NCBI GenBank assembly: GCA_001647635.1 | Contig: CP014761.1 | Location: forward strand, 3,410,001 to 3,474,000 | DNA length: 64,000 bases | Direction of reading: 5' to 3' | Origin: Leifsonia xyli | GTDB taxonomy: Bacteria > Actinomycetota > Actinomycetes > Actinomycetales > Microbacteriaceae | Shown here: positions 5,651 to 59,999 of the stretch, in pieces | Layout: each line of letters begins with the position of its first letter | Position numbering within the stretch: the stretch's first letter is position 1 | The notes under the pieces: model-generated | Database searches by the model: none | What the model was told of the DNA's origin: nothing | Seen by the model: only the letters and a program-made list of their open reading frames with translations | Translations under genes and position numbers: made by a program

Positions 5651-6769
5651 CTACGATGCGATCCGCGACACTTCGGCGAAGAGCGCGTCGCGCACGTCGC
5701 CGACGAGGTGCTCCCGGGCTCCGCGGAGCACGGGATGGGCGGCGACGCCGGTCGCGACGACGCTGCGGTCGCCCCAGGCGGGGCGGAGCTCGGCGGTGAC
5801 GAGCTCGGCGAGGCGCGGACCGCCGGCCAGGCCGGTCGCGCCGCCGAGCACGACGAGCTCGGGGTCGAGGAGGGCGAGCACGGGCACAACGCCCACGGCG
5901 ACGCGGCGGGCGAGCTCGCGGAGGAATGCGTCCCGGTCCGACCCGTGGCGCGCGGCGAGCCGGGCGACCGCCGGGCCTCCGATGAGGTCCTGCAGGTCGC
6001 GCGCGTCCGCATCCAGGTCGGCGGCGGAGCGGGGGATGGGCAGGTAGCCGATCTCGCCCGCGCCGCCCGACGCGCCGCGGTGGACGCTGCCGCCCTGGTC
6101 GACCGAGAGGCCGAGGCCCTCGTCGAGCCAGAGCAGGGCGAACCCGCCGGTGTCGCGGCCGGCGCCGTCGGTGCGCTCGGCGAGCGCCGCCAGGTTCACG
6201 TCGTTGTCGATGTGCACGGCGATGCCGAGCGCGTCGGACAGCCGGCGCCGGATGCCCTGCTTGGGCCAGCCGGGCAGCGTCTCGATGTAGGTGAGCTCGT
6301 CGGTGCGCGGGTCGAGCGCGCCCTGCACGCCGATGCAGACGGCGCCGACGCGCTGCGGGTCCGAGTCGGAGGCCGCGCACGCCGCGTCGATCGCGAGCCG
6401 GATGTCCTCCTCCGGTGTGCGCGCGGCGAGCGGGGTGACGGCGATCGGGCGCTCGGCGCCGGCCGCGTCCACCACAGTCGAGCGGATCGCCTCCGCGTCG
6501 ATGTCGATCGCGACGCCGAGCATCCGGTCGGTGCGCACGGCGTAGCTGGCGGCGTTGGGTCCGCGCCCGCCGGAGACTTCGCCGACGACGTGGATGAGGC
6601 CCGCCGTCTCGAGGCGGGCGACCATCTGGGCGGCGGTCGGCTTGGAGAGCCCGGAGAGCTCGCCGATGCGGGTGCGGGTGAGGACGCCGTGCTCGAGCAG
6701 CAGCGACAGCGCGGTGCGGTCGTTGGTCTCGCGCAGCCACCCGGGGGTGCCGCGTACCGGTCCGGCCAT
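5651..6769 (-). CDS. ROK family transcriptional regulator
   Basis: This ROK (repressor, ORF, kinase) protein of 372 residues has an N-terminal winged helix (LLLEHGVLTRTRIGELSGLSKPTAAQMVARLE) followed by a sugar-kinase-like domain with IDNDVNLAALAE and a GGATGL-type loop. It probably represses the downstream sugar operon until an inducer binds. Two ATGs are possible, at 6775 and 6769; I prefer 6769 because GAAGGG sits about 6 bases before it, whereas it abuts the upstream ATG. The promoter region just upstream carries palindromes that fit autoregulation. The zinc-binding Cys cluster found in many ROK proteins is not seen. Confidence 0.88.
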   Translation of the reverse strand: MAGPVRGTPGWLRETNDRTALSLLLEHGVLTRTRIGELSGLSKPTAAQMVARLETAGLIHVVGEVSGGRGPNAASYAVRTDRMLGVAIDIDAEAIRSTVVDAAGAERPIAVTPLAARTPEEDIRLAIDAACAASDSDPQRVGAVCIGVQGALDPRTDELTYIETLPGWPKQGIRRRLSDALGIAVHIDNDVNLAALAERTDGAGRDTGGFALLWLDEGLGLSVDQGGSVHRGASGGAGEIGYLPIPRSAADLDADARDLQDLIGGPAVARLAARHGSDRDAFLRELARRVAVGVVPVLALLDPELVVLGGATGLAGGPRLAELVTAELRPAWGDRSVVATGVAAHPVLRGAREHLVGDVRDALFAEVSRIAS

Positions 6770-6803
6770 CCTCATCCCTTCGTTGGAACGATCCTTGACC
6801 GTG

Positions 6804-32767: not shown

Positions 32768-34966
32768 GTGACTGATGTCGAACTCCACGCCGGGGGCGTG
32801 GACACCAGCGACCTGACCTCGCTCAAGGTGGCGGAGCTGCAGGCTCTCGCCGCCGAGCTCGGGCTCCAGGGCGCAGGCCGGCTCCGCAAGGGCGAGCTGG
32901 TCGAGGCGATCGCCGCTGCACGCGCAGCGGGCGCTCCGGCCGACTCCGCCGAGCCGGCCCTGATCGAGACCACCGAGGTCGACGCGGCGCCCGCCGCGGC
33001 CTCGCAGGTCCTCACCGAGCCTCTCATCGCCGAGCCGCTCATCGCCGAGCCGGCCGGCGCCGAGCGCGTCGAGCCCACCGTGGGCGACCCGGTGCTGCCG
33101 CCGGCCGATGCCGCGCAGAGCGCCGAGGCCCCGACGGGCGACCAGGCCGGCTCCGAGCCGCGCCGCCGCGGCTCGCGTCGCGTGACCAGCCCCGACGGCA
33201 CCGGCATCGCGGCGCCCGTCGCGACCGGCTCGCACGTCAACTCCGGCGCCACCGGCGTCGACTCGCTCATCCCCGATGTGGATGCGCTGCTCGACTCCGC
33301 GCTCGCCTCCCGCGAGCAGGCCCGCGGCCAGCAGAACGGCCAGAACGCCCAGAACGGCGAGCAGGGCCAGGGCGGCGGACGCCGTCGCCGTGGCCGTGGC
33401 GGCCAGAACGGCGAGCAGGGCGGCCAGGAGCAGCAGAACGGCCAGCAGGGCCAGGACGCCGCGCAGGCGCAGGGCGAGCAGGCCGACCAGCAGGCCGACC
33501 AGGCCGACGGCCAGAACGAGCAGCAGGGCTCCGGCCGCAACCGCCGCAACCGCAACCGCAACAAGAACAACCAGCAGCAGAACGAGCAGGGCCAGCAGAA
33601 TCAGCAGGGCCAGCCGAAGGACCTGCAGCAGGGTGGCCAGGGCCAGCAGAACCGGGGCCAGAACGCCCAGACCCAGCAGAGCGACGCCGAGGGCGAGCGC
33701 GGCGGCCGCTACCGCGACCGCAACCGCAAGCGTCGCGGCGGCGTCGGCGGCGATGAGTTCGAGCCGGAGCTGACCGAGGACGACGTCCTCATCCCCGTCG
33801 CGGGCATCCTCGACGTGCTCGACAACTACGCGTTCGTCCGCACCACCGGCTACCTGCCGGGCGCGAGCGACGTGTACGTCTCGCTGGGCCAGGTCAAGAA
33901 GTACAACCTGCGCAAGGGCGACGCCGTGGTCGGCGCCATCCGCCAGCCGCGCGACAACGAGAACAACAGCCGCCAGAAGTACAACGCGCTGGTCAAGGTC
34001 GACTCCATCAACGGGCAGACCCCGGAGGAGGCCGCGGCCCGCGTCGAGTTCGGCAAGCTGACGCCGCTGTACCCGCAGGAGCGCCTGCGCCTCGAGACCG
34101 AGCCCAGCAAGGTGACCCAGCGGATCATCGACCTGGTCGCCCCGATCGGCAAGGGCCAGCGCGGCCTCATCGTCGCGCCGCCGAAGGCCGGCAAGACCAT
34201 CGTGATGCAGCAGATTGCCAACGCGATCACCGCAAACAACCCCGAGGTTCACCTCATGGTGGTGCTGGTGGACGAGCGCCCAGAAGAGGTCACCGACATG
34301 CAGCGCACGGTGAAGGGCGAGGTCATCGCCTCGACCTTCGACCGTCCCGCCGAGGACCACACCACCGTCGCCGAGCTCGCCATCGAGCGCGCGAAGCGCC
34401 TGGTGGAGCTGGGCCACGACGTGGTCGTGCTGCTCGACTCCATCACCCGACTGGGCCGTGCGTACAACCTGACCGCTCCGGCGTCGGGCCGCATCCTCTC
34501 CGGTGGTGTGGACGCGTCGGCGCTGTACCCGCCGAAGCGCTTCTTCGGCGCCGCGCGCAACATCGAGCACGGCGGCTCGCTGACCATCCTCGCCTCGGCG
34601 CTGGTGGAGACCGGCTCCAAGATGGACGAGGTCATCTTCGAGGAGTTCAAGGGCACCGGCAACATGGAGCTCCGCCTGTCGCGCCAGCTGGCCGACAAGC
34701 GCATCTTCCCGGCCGTCGACGTCAACGCCTCCGGCACCCGCCGCGAGGAGATGCTGATGGGCCAGGACGAGGTCAAGATCACCTGGAAGCTGCGCCGCGC
34801 CCTCGCTGGGCTCGACCAGCAGCAGGCGCTCGAGATCGTCCTCGGCCGCCTCAAGGAGACCTCGAGCAACGTCGAGTTCCTGATGCAGGTGCAGAAGTCG
34901 ATGCCGCAGCCGACCAACGGCCACGGCAACGCGCACTCGCACGGTCACGAGAACGACCACCGCTAG
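32768..34966 (+). CDS. rho: Transcription termination factor Rho
   Basis: This 732-residue hexameric RNA helicase ends transcription. The N-terminal SAP-like domain ([18 protein letters not shown]) is followed by a long disordered insertion, about residues 180-325, rich in Gln, Asn, Gly and Arg (repeats such as [15 protein letters not shown]). Then come the RNA-binding cold-shock domain ([22 protein letters not shown]) and the ATPase core with Walker A APPKAGKT near residue 470 and [12 protein letters not shown] start at GTG 32768 behind AAAGGA rather than at GTG 32711. Large N-terminal insertions are known in actinobacterial Rho; this one is very Q/N rich. Confidence 0.95.
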
Positions 34967-56321: not shown

Positions 56322-57329
56322 ATGGACATCGACCTCAGCGTCTTGCGTCTCATGGAGCGCGAGAAGGAGATCCCGTTCGACGAGCTGGTGCAGATCATCG
56401 AACAGGCCATCCTGACCGCCTATCTGAAGCACACCAACCAGGCCGACCACCGGCACGGTCACAGCGACCAGCCGCCGGCCGCGCGCGTGCACCTCGACCG
56501 CAAGACCGGGCATGTCACCGTCTACGTGCCCGAGCGCGACGAGGAGGGCAACGTCATCGGCGAGGCCGAGGACAGCCCGAGCGACTTCGGCCGCATCGCC
56601 GCCTTCGCGGCCAAGCAGGTCATCAACCAGCGTCTGCGTGACATCGCCGACGACGCGGTGCTGGGCGAGTTCCGGGGCCGCGAGGGGGACATCGTCGCCG
56701 GTGTCATCCAGCAGGGCCCGAACCCGCGGATGATCCACATCGACCTCGGCACGGTGGAGGCCATCCTCCCGCCCGAGGAGCAGGTGCCGGGCGAGGAGTA
56801 CACGCACGGCTCGCGCATCCGCGTCTACGTCACGAGCGTGACGAAGGGACCGAAGGGCCCGTCGATCACGGTGTCGCGCACGCATCCGGCGCTCGTCCGC
56901 AAGCTGTTCGCGCTCGAGGTCCCGGAGATCGCGAGCGGCGTTGTCGAGATCGTCTCGCTGGCCCGCGAGGCCGGACACCGTACGAAGATCGCCGTGCGCG
57001 CGACCGAGCCGGGCGTGAACGCCAAGGGCGCCTGCATCGGCGAGCTCGGGCAGCGCGTCCGGGCGGTCACAGCGGAGCTGAACAACGAGAAGATCGACAT
57101 CGTCGACTACTCGCCCGACCTCGCGACCTTCGTGTCGAGTGCGCTGAGCCCGGCAAAGGTCACCAGCGCTTTCGTGATCGACGAGTCGCTGAAGGCCGTT
57201 CGGGCGCTCGTGCCCGACTACCAGCTGTCGCTCGCGATCGGCAAGGAGGGCCAGAACGCCCGCCTCGCCGCGAAGCTGACGGGCGCGAAAATCGACATCC
57301 AGCCCGATTCGATCCTCGACCGCGACTGA
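56322..57329 (+). CDS. nusA: Transcription termination/antitermination protein NusA
   Basis: This 335-residue RNA polymerase-binding protein has the N-terminal domain (LSVLRLMEREKEIPFDELVQ), an S1 domain (GDIVAGVIQQGPNPRMIHIDLG), and two KH domains (GACIGELGQRVRAV; SLAIGKEGQNARLAAKLTGAKIDI). It lacks the C-terminal repeats of E. coli NusA, as is normal for actinobacteria. The start is ATG at 56322 behind AGAGGAGG. Its last twelve codons, including the stop, are repeated 108 bases downstream. Confidence 0.97.
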   Translation: MDIDLSVLRLMEREKEIPFDELVQIIEQAILTAYLKHTNQADHRHGHSDQPPAARVHLDRKTGHVTVYVPERDEEGNVIGEAEDSPSDFGRIAAFAAKQVINQRLRDIADDAVLGEFRGREGDIVAGVIQQGPNPRMIHIDLGTVEAILPPEEQVPGEEYTHGSRIRVYVTSVTKGPKGPSITVSRTHPALVRKLFALEVPEIASGVVEIVSLAREAGHRTKIAVRATEPGVNAKGACIGELGQRVRAVTAELNNEKIDIVDYSPDLATFVSSALSPAKVTSAFVIDESLKAVRALVPDYQLSLAIGKEGQNARLAAKLTGAKIDIQPDSILDRD

Positions 57330-57349
57330 TCGATGTCGATCTTCGCGCC
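57282..57349. repeat. 18-bp inverted repeat spanning the nusA stop
   Basis: Bases 57282-57299 (inside nusA) and 57332-57349 (after the stop) are reverse complements with a single mismatch. The downstream arm is an inverted copy of coding sequence. The 32-base loop holds the rest of nusA. Confidence 0.9.
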
Positions 57350-57439
57350 GTGCCGACGCGGCGGAGCCGTGGCGCCACGGTTGCCGCAGGCACCCAAGCA
57401 CAGCATCCAGCCCGATTCGATCCTCGACCGCGACTGATC
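57296..57439 (+). repeat. 36-bp perfect direct repeat of the nusA 3' end
   Basis: Bases 57296-57331 (the last codons of nusA with TGATC) recur exactly at 57404-57439, a start-to-start distance of 108. Between them lie the inverted arm and a palindrome. The second copy is not in a gene. It looks like a scar of a rearrangement. Confidence 0.95.
57350..57393. repeat. Nested GC-rich palindrome after nusA
   Basis: GTGCC...GGCAC, GCGGC...GCCGC and the perfect CCGTGGC/GCCACGG (57367-57380) pair in order around a single centre, giving 17 pairs interrupted by small bulges. It would serve as a terminator for nusA or may be a mobile palindromic unit. Confidence 0.8.
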
Positions 57440-57452
57440 CGCTGCGGCTGAC

Positions 57453-57466
57453 GCGCGGCGCCGCGC
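57453..57466. terminator. Perfect 14-base palindrome before the cell-wall-binding gene stop
   Basis: GCGCGGCGCCGCGC lies 8 bases beyond the stop of the minus-strand gene (57474). It is self-complementary and could help end transcription from either side, but it has no loop or U-run. Confidence 0.3.
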
Positions 57467-57473
57467 CGGCGGC

Positions 57474-59921
57474 CTACTTCACGTAGGCCGCCAGCGCCGT
57501 CTGCACGCCGTCGCCGATCACGTTCTCGCCTCCCACGAGGGCGATGTGTCCCGGTCCGATCCGGTTCAGCTGCGCCCCGACGCTGGGCGGCACGGAACCG
57601 GCGAGCGTCAGGAGGAGCGGCGCTCCGCTCTTCCCGGCGGCGGCCGACGCCGACAGCGCGTCGGGGAAGTCGACCCCCGAGGACACGAACGCCGACGACG
57701 TGCCCGCGGCGAAGGCGGCAGCGGCGGCGGCGCTGGTCTCGAACCGGTCGGAGCCGCTCACCCGGGTGACCGATCCTGTCGTGTACGCCTTGAGACCGGC
57801 TAGCACCGCATCCGACACCGCCGCCGGGCCTCCGACGACCACGATCGACTTCGGCGCGAGCCGTTTCAGCTCCGTGGCGATGGGCGTCGGAACCCACGAC
57901 TGGGTGGTCAGCAGCAGCGACGCCCCCGGCGTGCGGGCGGCCAGGGCTCCTGCCGACAGCGCATCCGGGAACGACTCGCCCGACACCAGGTAGGCGACAT
58001 CCGCACCGACGGTGGCGGTGGCCCGCGAGAGGGCCGCGCTGGTCTCGTACCGGTCGCCTCCCGAGACCCGCGTGACCGTTCCGGTCGTGAAGCCCTTCAG
58101 CTGCGTGACCACGCTCTCGGCGACGCTGTTCGCCCCGCCGAGCACCACGATCTTGCCGGGATGGAGGCGCTGCAGCTCCGTCTGCACGGCCGCAGGGATC
58201 GCAGTCGGCTGCACGAGCAGCATGGGTCCGCCTGCACGCGCGGCCGCCGCCGAGCCGGACAGCGCATCCGGGAACTGCAGCCCCGAAGCGATGTAGGCGA
58301 CCGGCGCGTTCGCCGGGAAGGAGGCCGCCGACACTGCGGCACTGGTGGCGAACCGGTCGTCGCCGGCCACTCGTCCGACCTTCTGCGCGCTGGCCGGGAG
58401 TGAGTAGGCGCGCAGCTTGCCGCCGCCGTCGGTGAAGTACAGCGCGCCGTTGACGACGATCGGGCTCTGCCAGTGCAGCCCGCTCGCCCCGGCCGACGCG
58501 TCCGTCCACAGCTGCGCGCCGGTCGCCGGGTTCAGCGCCCGGACGCCGTTGCGCGACAGGTAGAACAGCACTCCGCCCGCGATCACCGGCGTCGTTCCCG
58601 CGACGGTCTGCGACCAGACCGGCGTGAGCGAGGGGTTCCCGGCGCTCGCGGTCAGCTTCAGCGCCGAGATGCCGCTGTTGTTGGCGATGAAGACCCACGA
58701 GGCGCCCGAACCGTCCACCCAGTCGGCCGGCTGGGTGAGCACCTGGCCTCCTTGCGGGACGGCGATGTTCTGCAACTCGCCGCCAACGGGGCCGGCGTGA
58801 CCCGAGCCGTTCAGGTTCGCGGTGTTCAGCAGGCGGATGCGGGAATCCTTGCCGCTCTGCACGGCGAGGTGGGTGTAGTTCGAGCCGGCCGGCGGCGCAA
58901 CGACCTGCGGCGCGGTGCTGCCGAGGTCGAGGTCCTGCTGGTTCAGCTGCGTGTAGTTCGACGGGGTGTAGCTGTCGACCGGGCCGCCGCCCGATCCGGT
59001 GCCGTCGGGGTTGATGGCGAGCACCGTGTCGCCCCAGTTCCGGGAGCCGTCGAACACCGAGTTGCCGGTGGAGAACAGGATCCGCTGCGTGCCGGGATCC
59101 CACACCACGCTCGGGCGCGCCCACACCGCCGACTGCACGTTCGCGCATCCGCCCGCGGCGAGGTGGCCGGTGTTGTCGCTGCAGAGGGAGTTGAAGACCC
59201 GCTGGGACCCGCTGGCCAGGTCGATGGTGGTGACGTGGCCCTGGTAGTCGCCCCGGTCGCCGGGATAGCCGCCGTTGGAGACGTACAGATAGGTGTGGCC
59301 GCCGGTGGTCACGATCGTCAGCGCCGGCGAGCTCTTCTCGTCGTACGGCTTGACGGTCGCCACCTGCGGCCAGCCGCCGCCGATGGTCTCCGCGCCCGAG
59401 CCCGTCGCGTACTTGTGCACCTTGCCGTCGAGTCCGTAGCTGTACACGAAGGCGCCGCTCGGGTCGACGGCGGGGGAGGAGGTGGTGTAGCAGGTGGTCG
59501 AGCCGTTGTTGATCTTGCACGATCCCGGACCGTTCTGATGCGCCCACACCTCCGCGCCGGTGCGGGCGTCGGTGGCGGTGATCCAGCCGTCCTTCGTGGT
59601 CGTGAAGAGCAGGTCGCGCGTCCCTCCCGCCGTCTGGACGACCGGCTGTTCGACGGGCGGGCCGTCCGACACGCCGCGGAGCGTCGCCGTGAACAGCGGC
59701 GTCAGGCCGCCGACGGTCGACGGAATGATCTGCGTCTCCGCGGCGTTGACACCGTAGTGCGAGGGCCCGTTCCCGAACTGGCTCCACGCGACGGGCGCCG
59801 CCTCGGCTGGTGCGACCGCCGGCTGCACGACCGCGAGAGCGGTGGCGGCCAGCGCCGCGGCCAGGGTGAGGTGGAGCAGGCGTCGTCCTGCGGGATGCGC
59901 GTCGTCGCGATGAGTGGTCAT
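57474..59921 (-). CDS. Secreted beta-propeller protein with three cell-wall-binding repeats
   Basis: This 815-residue protein has a signal peptide (LLHLTLAAALAATALAVVQPAVAPAEA, cleaved near residue 43), then a PQQ-like beta-propeller of about 480 residues with repeated blades (DARTGAEVWAHQN; NPATGAQLWTDAS). The last 290 residues are three CWB2 (cell wall binding repeat 2) units starting VGRVAGDDRFATSAAVS, VTRVSGGDRYETSAALS and VTRVSGSDRFETSAAAA. CWB2 domains attach proteins to wall polymers in Gram-positives. Two nearby Cys pairs in the propeller may be disulfides. It lies between nusA and ylxR, on the other strand. The ligand is unknown. A GGAGGGACC ribosome binding site precedes the ATG. 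Confidence 0.9.
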   Translation of the reverse strand: MTTHRDDAHPAGRRLLHLTLAAALAATALAVVQPAVAPAEAAPVAWSQFGNGPSHYGVNAAETQIIPSTVGGLTPLFTATLRGVSDGPPVEQPVVQTAGGTRDLLFTTTKDGWITATDARTGAEVWAHQNGPGSCKINNGSTTCYTTSSPAVDPSGAFVYSYGLDGKVHKYATGSGAETIGGGWPQVATVKPYDEKSSPALTIVTTGGHTYLYVSNGGYPGDRGDYQGHVTTIDLASGSQRVFNSLCSDNTGHLAAGGCANVQSAVWARPSVVWDPGTQRILFSTGNSVFDGSRNWGDTVLAINPDGTGSGGGPVDSYTPSNYTQLNQQDLDLGSTAPQVVAPPAGSNYTHLAVQSGKDSRIRLLNTANLNGSGHAGPVGGELQNIAVPQGGQVLTQPADWVDGSGASWVFIANNSGISALKLTASAGNPSLTPVWSQTVAGTTPVIAGGVLFYLSRNGVRALNPATGAQLWTDASAGASGLHWQSPIVVNGALYFTDGGGKLRAYSLPASAQKVGRVAGDDRFATSAAVSAASFPANAPVAYIASGLQFPDALSGSAAAARAGGPMLLVQPTAIPAAVQTELQRLHPGKIVVLGGANSVAESVVTQLKGFTTGTVTRVSGGDRYETSAALSRATATVGADVAYLVSGESFPDALSAGALAARTPGASLLLTTQSWVPTPIATELKRLAPKSIVVVGGPAAVSDAVLAGLKAYTTGSVTRVSGSDRFETSAAAAAAFAAGTSSAFVSSGVDFPDALSASAAAGKSGAPLLLTLAGSVPPSVGAQLNRIGPGHIALVGGENVIGDGVQTALAAYVK

Positions 59922-59999
59922 GGTCCCTCCCTGTGCGAGTCTCCCCCGAGAGGGGGACACCTGCCAGTCCTCCACACGGCGGACAGGGCGGGGGACGAC

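Follow-up and report, generated by a model that had tools for sequence, protein, structure and literature searches.

A patchily distributed, probably old hairpin cassette with copies of the gene end lies behind nusA in Leifsonia and other Microbacteriaceae

Results

The nusA 3′ end is followed by a short composite insert

In the window, by which we mean the whole 64,000-nucleotide stretch of the Leifsonia xyli contig CP014761.1 that was analysed, the nusA gene (328 bits against the NusA model TIGR01953, cut-off 253; stop codon TGA at 57327 to 57329) is followed by an insert of ~110 bp that holds no integrase or other recombinase gene. Read from the stop codon, the insert runs from an inverted arm through a hairpin and a linker to the directly repeated nusA tail (Table 1), and we hereafter refer to it as the cassette. 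An earlier note on this DNA had described an exact 36-base recurrence 108 bases downstream, and this repeat is indeed exact (36/36 bases, spacing 108), except that the repeated unit is made of the last 34 nucleotides of nusA plus TC, rather than of 36 nucleotides of the gene. The inverted copy directly after the stop was likewise found as described, at 17/18 bases with a G/A difference as the sole mismatch, and so was the palindrome, which forms 17 nested pairs in the RNA fold (z = −2.5). One of the two origins that had been proposed, in which a palindromic element inserted beside a duplicated gene end, fits this anatomy.

Table 1. Features of the nusA end and of the cassette in the window.
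Feature	Position	Strand	Basis
nusA, host gene	56322..57329	+	Match to TIGR01953; Pfam NusA_N and KH_5
nusA coding stretch, source of the inverted arm	57282..57299	+	Inverted repeat, 17/18
Tail copy 1, final 34 nt of nusA including the stop codon, plus TC	57296..57331	+	Direct repeat, 36/36
Inverted arm, reverse complement of the nusA end	57332..57349	+	Repeat, 17/18; arms track their own nusA elsewhere
Leifsonia-type hairpin, 39 nt, 13 pairs, covarying	57345..57383	+	Covariance-model match, E = 3.7e-9, to a model that includes the window sequence itself; covariation
Nested 17-pair palindrome, alternative fold	57350..57393	+	RNA fold; without covariation in six Leifsonia
Linker, variable end before the second tail	57394..57403	+	Conservation lower than that of the hairpin
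Tail copy 2, direct repeat of tail copy 1	57404..57439	+	Direct repeat; copies track their own nusA in other species

Beyond the cassette, an antisense gene with CWB2 cell-wall-binding and PQQ repeats (57474 to 59975, minus strand) lies between nusA and ylxR, which is followed by infB, and this gene interrupts the usual nusA-ylxR-infB order. Genes of this kind are found at the same position in G008, G011, G014, G041, G070, and G144, with or without the cassette.

As a control within the window, we scored 39 long open reading frames, chosen by length and not by annotation; nusA is missing from this set, evidently because of a longer antisense reading frame. The best tail-copy score among the 39 was 14, versus 34 for nusA. 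Inverted-copy scores did not exceed 12, except for one reading frame (6195 to 6771, minus strand) with an inverted copy directly downstream of its 3′ end, whose score of 16 equals that of nusA. The inverted arm alone is therefore not unique in the window, but the combination of arm and direct copy is. Elsewhere in the window, imperfect short direct repeats with CAG- and GGC-rich triplets were seen inside a long open reading frame (33329 to 33701). The search for other copies that the earlier note had proposed returned nothing further in the own genome beyond the locus and the nusA tail (next best match E = 0.1, 17 to 33 nt), placing the cassette at a single site, in contrast to REP or MITE elements with their many copies per genome, and it did return cassettes behind nusA in related genomes.

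The cassette recurs behind nusA across Microbacteriaceae

The arm-plus-hairpin part occurs behind nusA in 8 of 28 Leifsonia genomes, intact in six (G000, G002, G006, G009, G024, and G040), diverged in G011, and truncated in G022, while six further genomes matched through the nusA tail alone. A pattern scan of genome contigs gave 18 matches, 11 of them at chance sites away from nusA and seven at nusA ends, namely in L. aquatica H1aii, L. poae, L. shinshuensis DP-L11, Leifsonia sp. Root227 and TF02-11, an uncultured Leifsonia MAG, and a Herbiconiux MAG. In a wider survey of nusA ends, the inverted arm scored at least 17 in 19 of 153 loci, a set that includes five loci from other families, against a shuffled maximum of 16, and the direct copy scored at least 18 in 17 of 152 loci (L248, a tandem array of another kind, included), with all others at 15 or below. 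L071 stands in for L018, whose contig starts inside nusA; a first survey had scored 86 of 87 loci.

Besides Leifsonia, an arm and/or a tail copy was found in at least nine Microbacteriaceae genera (g23, g24, g27, g44, g49, g51, g58, g78, and g99), to one of which the Herbiconiux MAG may belong. The arm scored just 13 to 15 in g58 and g99, with a tail copy at 25 to 29. Tandem units are present in G070, G149, G323, and G355, and partial ones in G084 and G770. Two neighboring observations concern nusA ends of other shape: by eye, the inverted arm contains the stop codon of nusA in g69 (L192) and g72 (L149 and L186), so that the NusA C terminus is a few residues shorter than in Leifsonia, and the nusA 3′ end of L248 (G109) carries several tandem copies of the nusA tail with a short spacer and without a hairpin. 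Among 376 genomes sampled from the order, three weak matches were obtained in addition to the window, and the stretches fetched around them held no nusA. As found here, the cassette is restricted to Microbacteriaceae and to the 3′ side of nusA.

Bearers do not form one group in the nusA tree, although support is good for only 8 of its 26 inner branches. An assembly artefact is ruled out by the recurrence of the arrangement in many independent genomes. The cassette is not a one-off event: the recent single event envisaged in the earlier note is at odds with its presence in 8 of 28 Leifsonia genomes and at least nine other genera and with a hairpin pairing kept by compensatory change, and the opposite case raised there, conservation across the whole family, does not apply either, as presence is patchy.

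Presence is patchy, and the hairpin changes more slowly than the linker

In both Leifsonia and g51, the cassette is missing from more than half of the species, and 6 of 16 genomes of g51 carry the hairpin. The same genus offers clean empty and filled sites. In G768 and G771, which are 95% and 94% identical to the bearer G416 over a 344-base nusA query, the stop codon is directly followed by TCGC, and in G416, the cassette and the second tail come first and TCGC follows. Remnants of the cassette are seen in G774, G144, G205, and G022. Patchiness and remnants together indicate that any benefit would be weak.

Where the cassette is present, its parts differ in their rate of change. Among the six g51 bearers, the hairpin is 97.5% identical and the linker 67%, and among six Leifsonia the values are 94% and 82%. 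The slower change marks the hairpin as constrained, and the element has probably not arrived freshly. The pair G000 and G002 is identical over arm and palindrome (62/62 bases), with 69 of 304 third positions of nusA differing at codons for the same residue; a recent transfer was not concluded from this identity, given six differences among the ten linker bases that follow the palindrome.

Arm and direct copy follow the nusA of their own host

Both copies match the host nusA down to synonymous codons. The arms scored 534 against their own nusA, above a maximum of 479 in 5000 permutations (28 loci), and the distal part of the direct copies scored 418, above a maximum of 320 in 5000 permutations (20 loci), where both sets were selected as cassette bearers and relatedness between the loci was ignored. 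This behavior is well illustrated by genus g78: in G308 and G268, nusA reads GCC AAA ATT GAT ATC and faces an exactly complementary 17-nt arm, whereas in G221 nusA reads GCG AAA ATC GAC ATC and the arm is different yet equally exact, in an element that is otherwise shared. In the same genus, the arm is decayed in G169 and lacking in G104. In g78 as in the permutation test, the arm thus follows its source through multi-base changes, as template switching would have it. All 20 direct copies begin at ATYCAGCC of nusA.

In view of this tracking, arm and direct copy have probably been recopied from nusA. For the distal part of the direct copy, which has no pairing partner, selection for pairing cannot explain the tracking, and copying from nusA does. 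For the arm, the stem comprises 563 Watson-Crick pairs, 10 G-U, 5 A-C, and 14 other mismatches, and the want of a clear G-U excess among the mismatches gives no clear sign of RNA selection on it. Template switching, the other origin put forward in the earlier note, is a good explanation for the making or renewal of the arm, which follows the nusA codons of each species, although not in the form of a recent single event. The window is the exception to the rule: its own nusA has changed from AAG to AAA, a synonymous change, and the arm still fits the older base. Since all 17 other legible Leifsonia nusA tails read AAG at this codon, the A in the window is derived, which settles the G/A difference in favor of a change in nusA rather than of a variant source for the copy.

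The hairpin covaries and points to an RNA

Upon aligning first 12 and then 17 loci, we found 193 of 195 cells of the 13-pair hairpin paired, with two mismatch positions, a count that is flattered by the omission of L151, whose inner part misfits, and by the five added loci, whose discovery relied on a model of that structure; 12 of 13 candidate stretches had entered the first alignment. Both-sided changes occur at 7 of the 13 pairs, and slid controls reached at most 57.4% paired. One pair, for example, is U-A in most Leifsonia, A-U in g44, the Herbiconiux MAG, g24, and G430, G-C in g51 and G011, and U-G in G323. The 17-pair palindrome, in contrast to this 13-pair fold that covaries across genera, showed no covariation in six Leifsonia and was rejected as the conserved fold.

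Read on the nusA-sense strand, ten hairpin cells are G-U and none is A-C, with seven of the ten at a single pair, partly shared by descent, and perhaps five independent origins. G-U without A-C points to the nusA-sense strand as the structured strand, a conclusion that is supported, not proven. With the sense strand structured, the hairpin would probably act at the RNA level, at the 3′ end of the nusA transcript.

A covariance model of the Leifsonia-type hairpin, which shares just its first five bases with the nusA arm, matched 16 of 398 family genomes at E ≤ 0.01 under stricter filters that lose weak matches. Twelve genomes lay below E = 1e-3, and all 12 matches were at the nusA end; seven of these genomes had supplied the model, and five (G207, G257, G392, G416, and G430) are independent of it. 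The remaining four matches (E = 0.003 to 0.006) are at about chance level and without nusA in the fetched stretch. On this comparative evidence, the predicted Leifsonia-type hairpin is shown to be kept as a structure in six genera. In the same 398 genomes, the model found no match to the cassettes of g49, g58, g78, and g99, whose hairpins look different, which argues against a single hairpin family; all cassettes may or may not share one origin. No Rfam family scored above its cut-off (best, MIR6440 with 23.3 bits against 95), and no terminator-like site with a U-tract was found in 57200 to 57560.

Discussion

What explanation fits the cassette best

We tentatively favor, at somewhat short of even probability, a hairpin cassette that is old, dispensable, and transcribed and whose nusA copies renew themselves. 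The simplest route of renewal for the arm would be template switching within the inverted repeat during replication; recombination or slippage between direct repeats might give rise to the direct copy and the tandem units. Direct repeats of ~34 bp would also permit the loss of the cassette without a scar, which would explain its patchy presence. At the level of the message, the hairpin could stabilise or process the 3′ end of the nusA transcript. Two partners are conceivable for the arm: the nusA coding end, with which it could pair across the stop codon, and the direct copy, which could compete for it. In the RNA folds for the window (z = −2.5) and for G002 (z = −4.5), the coding end is the partner of the arm, and the stem encloses the stop codon. 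Template switching is described as making and repairing RNA hairpins (PMC8794818) and as acting on inverted-repeat arms in yeast genes (PMC8604942).

Rather unlikely, but worth setting beside it, is a tiny mobile element, selfish and site-specific, that would home to the nusA 3′ end, keep the gene whole through duplication of its ~34-nt tail, and spread between species with enzymes supplied in trans. Patchy presence along with a constrained hairpin, the single target site, the constant ATYCAGCC start of 20/20 direct copies, the clean filled and empty sites, and the tandem units all speak for mobility. So does the second tail of G006, G430, and G255, which resembles the tail of relatives. The polarity that seemed strong from these three genomes is, however, unsupported by a count over 18 bearers, from which L134, L239, L241, L203, L278, and L283 were omitted: six had identical tails; compared by mean, the second tail was closer to relatives in five and the first in six, with one tie, and compared by best relative, the second was closer in six and the first in three, with three ties. 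Inspection by eye of nine loci in which nusA and ylxR lie far apart revealed no recombinase, and the drifted linkers speak against a fresh arrival. Phage records and viral contigs were blank, and the plasmid search gave one 26-base match at E = 0.1, so that a phage or plasmid source was rejected, which leaves the mobile element without a source in any of the three. A bolder version, to which we give the same doubtful standing, is a hitherto undescribed kind of selfish nucleic acid reduced to a minimum: a ~40-nt hairpin, devoid of genes, that would home to the nusA 3′ end and copy the host gene end both ways on arrival, so that the gene stays intact, its guide-like arm being thereby fitted to each new host species.

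A functionless scar of template switching and duplication behind nusA, which extends the idea of the earlier note to repeated independent events, strikes us as distinctly unlikely for the cassette as a whole. Switch-and-return copying does yield inverted and direct copies of local sequence, the hairpins differ between genera, and the hairpin stem of g49 resembles the nusA tail by eye; yet a neutral scar would hardly keep a Leifsonia-type hairpin in common across six genera, with compensatory changes and a slower rate than the linker. For the genera with other hairpins, a neutral scar may suffice. Remnant attachment sites of an element integrated at the nusA 3′ end are very improbable. A direct repeat of the gene end is the mark of 3′-end integration, and the nusA tail may bear a likeness to a tRNA T-arm; against this, no integrase was seen, and many species, with their comparably short spacing, would each have had to undergo an identical deletion. 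No full element between two nusA tails was seen in the genomes examined. A small protein of 34 residues that ends in the NusA C terminus, open and in frame by eye in G000, G002, G006, G009, G024, and G070, is scarcely credible and was rejected, as several genera have lost the start codon or the frame: G050 and G308 have no start codon in the arm, and G011 and G416 are out of frame with the tail copy.

Comparison with known systems

We found no description of a nusA-end cassette in the literature, which is weak evidence of novelty given that most subscription journals were outside the coverage. The cassette also contributes a structured element to the end of the nusA message, and none of the Rfam families fitted it.

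Several known systems share part of its anatomy. Intrinsic terminators and stabilising 3′ stem-loops are GC-rich hairpins directly after a stop codon, as is the hairpin of the cassette, which, unlike intrinsic terminators, has no U-tract, carries copies of the gene end, and is patchy. REP, MITE, and enterobacterial RU sequences are short, non-coding, hairpin-forming, intergenic palindromic repeats, and the cassette is likewise short, non-coding, hairpin-forming, and intergenic; it differs in occupying one place per genome, always at nusA, and in having arms copied from the host gene. Elements integrated at gene 3′ ends duplicate a core, so that the gene end appears as a direct repeat and the gene stays intact, and they can occur in tandem units. 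The cassette resembles them in the direct repeat of the gene end around an insert (36/36 in the window; empty and filled sites in g51), in the intact gene, and in the tandem units, whereas its size of ~110 bp, the lack of an integrase, the additional inverted copy, and the restriction to one host gene set it apart. If mobile, it would rank among the smallest site-specific elements.

The likeness to template-switch hairpins and quasipalindrome correction extends to the pattern of change. There, as set out in PMC8794818 and PMC8604942, a reverse-complement copy adjoins its source, the arms change in concert over several bases, and the 3′ arm follows the 5′ arm. To this the nusA cassette adds a second, direct copy of the gene end, one arm that codes for protein, and recurrence behind one gene in many genera. 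It thereby offers a natural and repeated test of whether paired arms track each other by selection or by replication copying, a question that the authors of the template-switch work leave partly open (PMC8794818).
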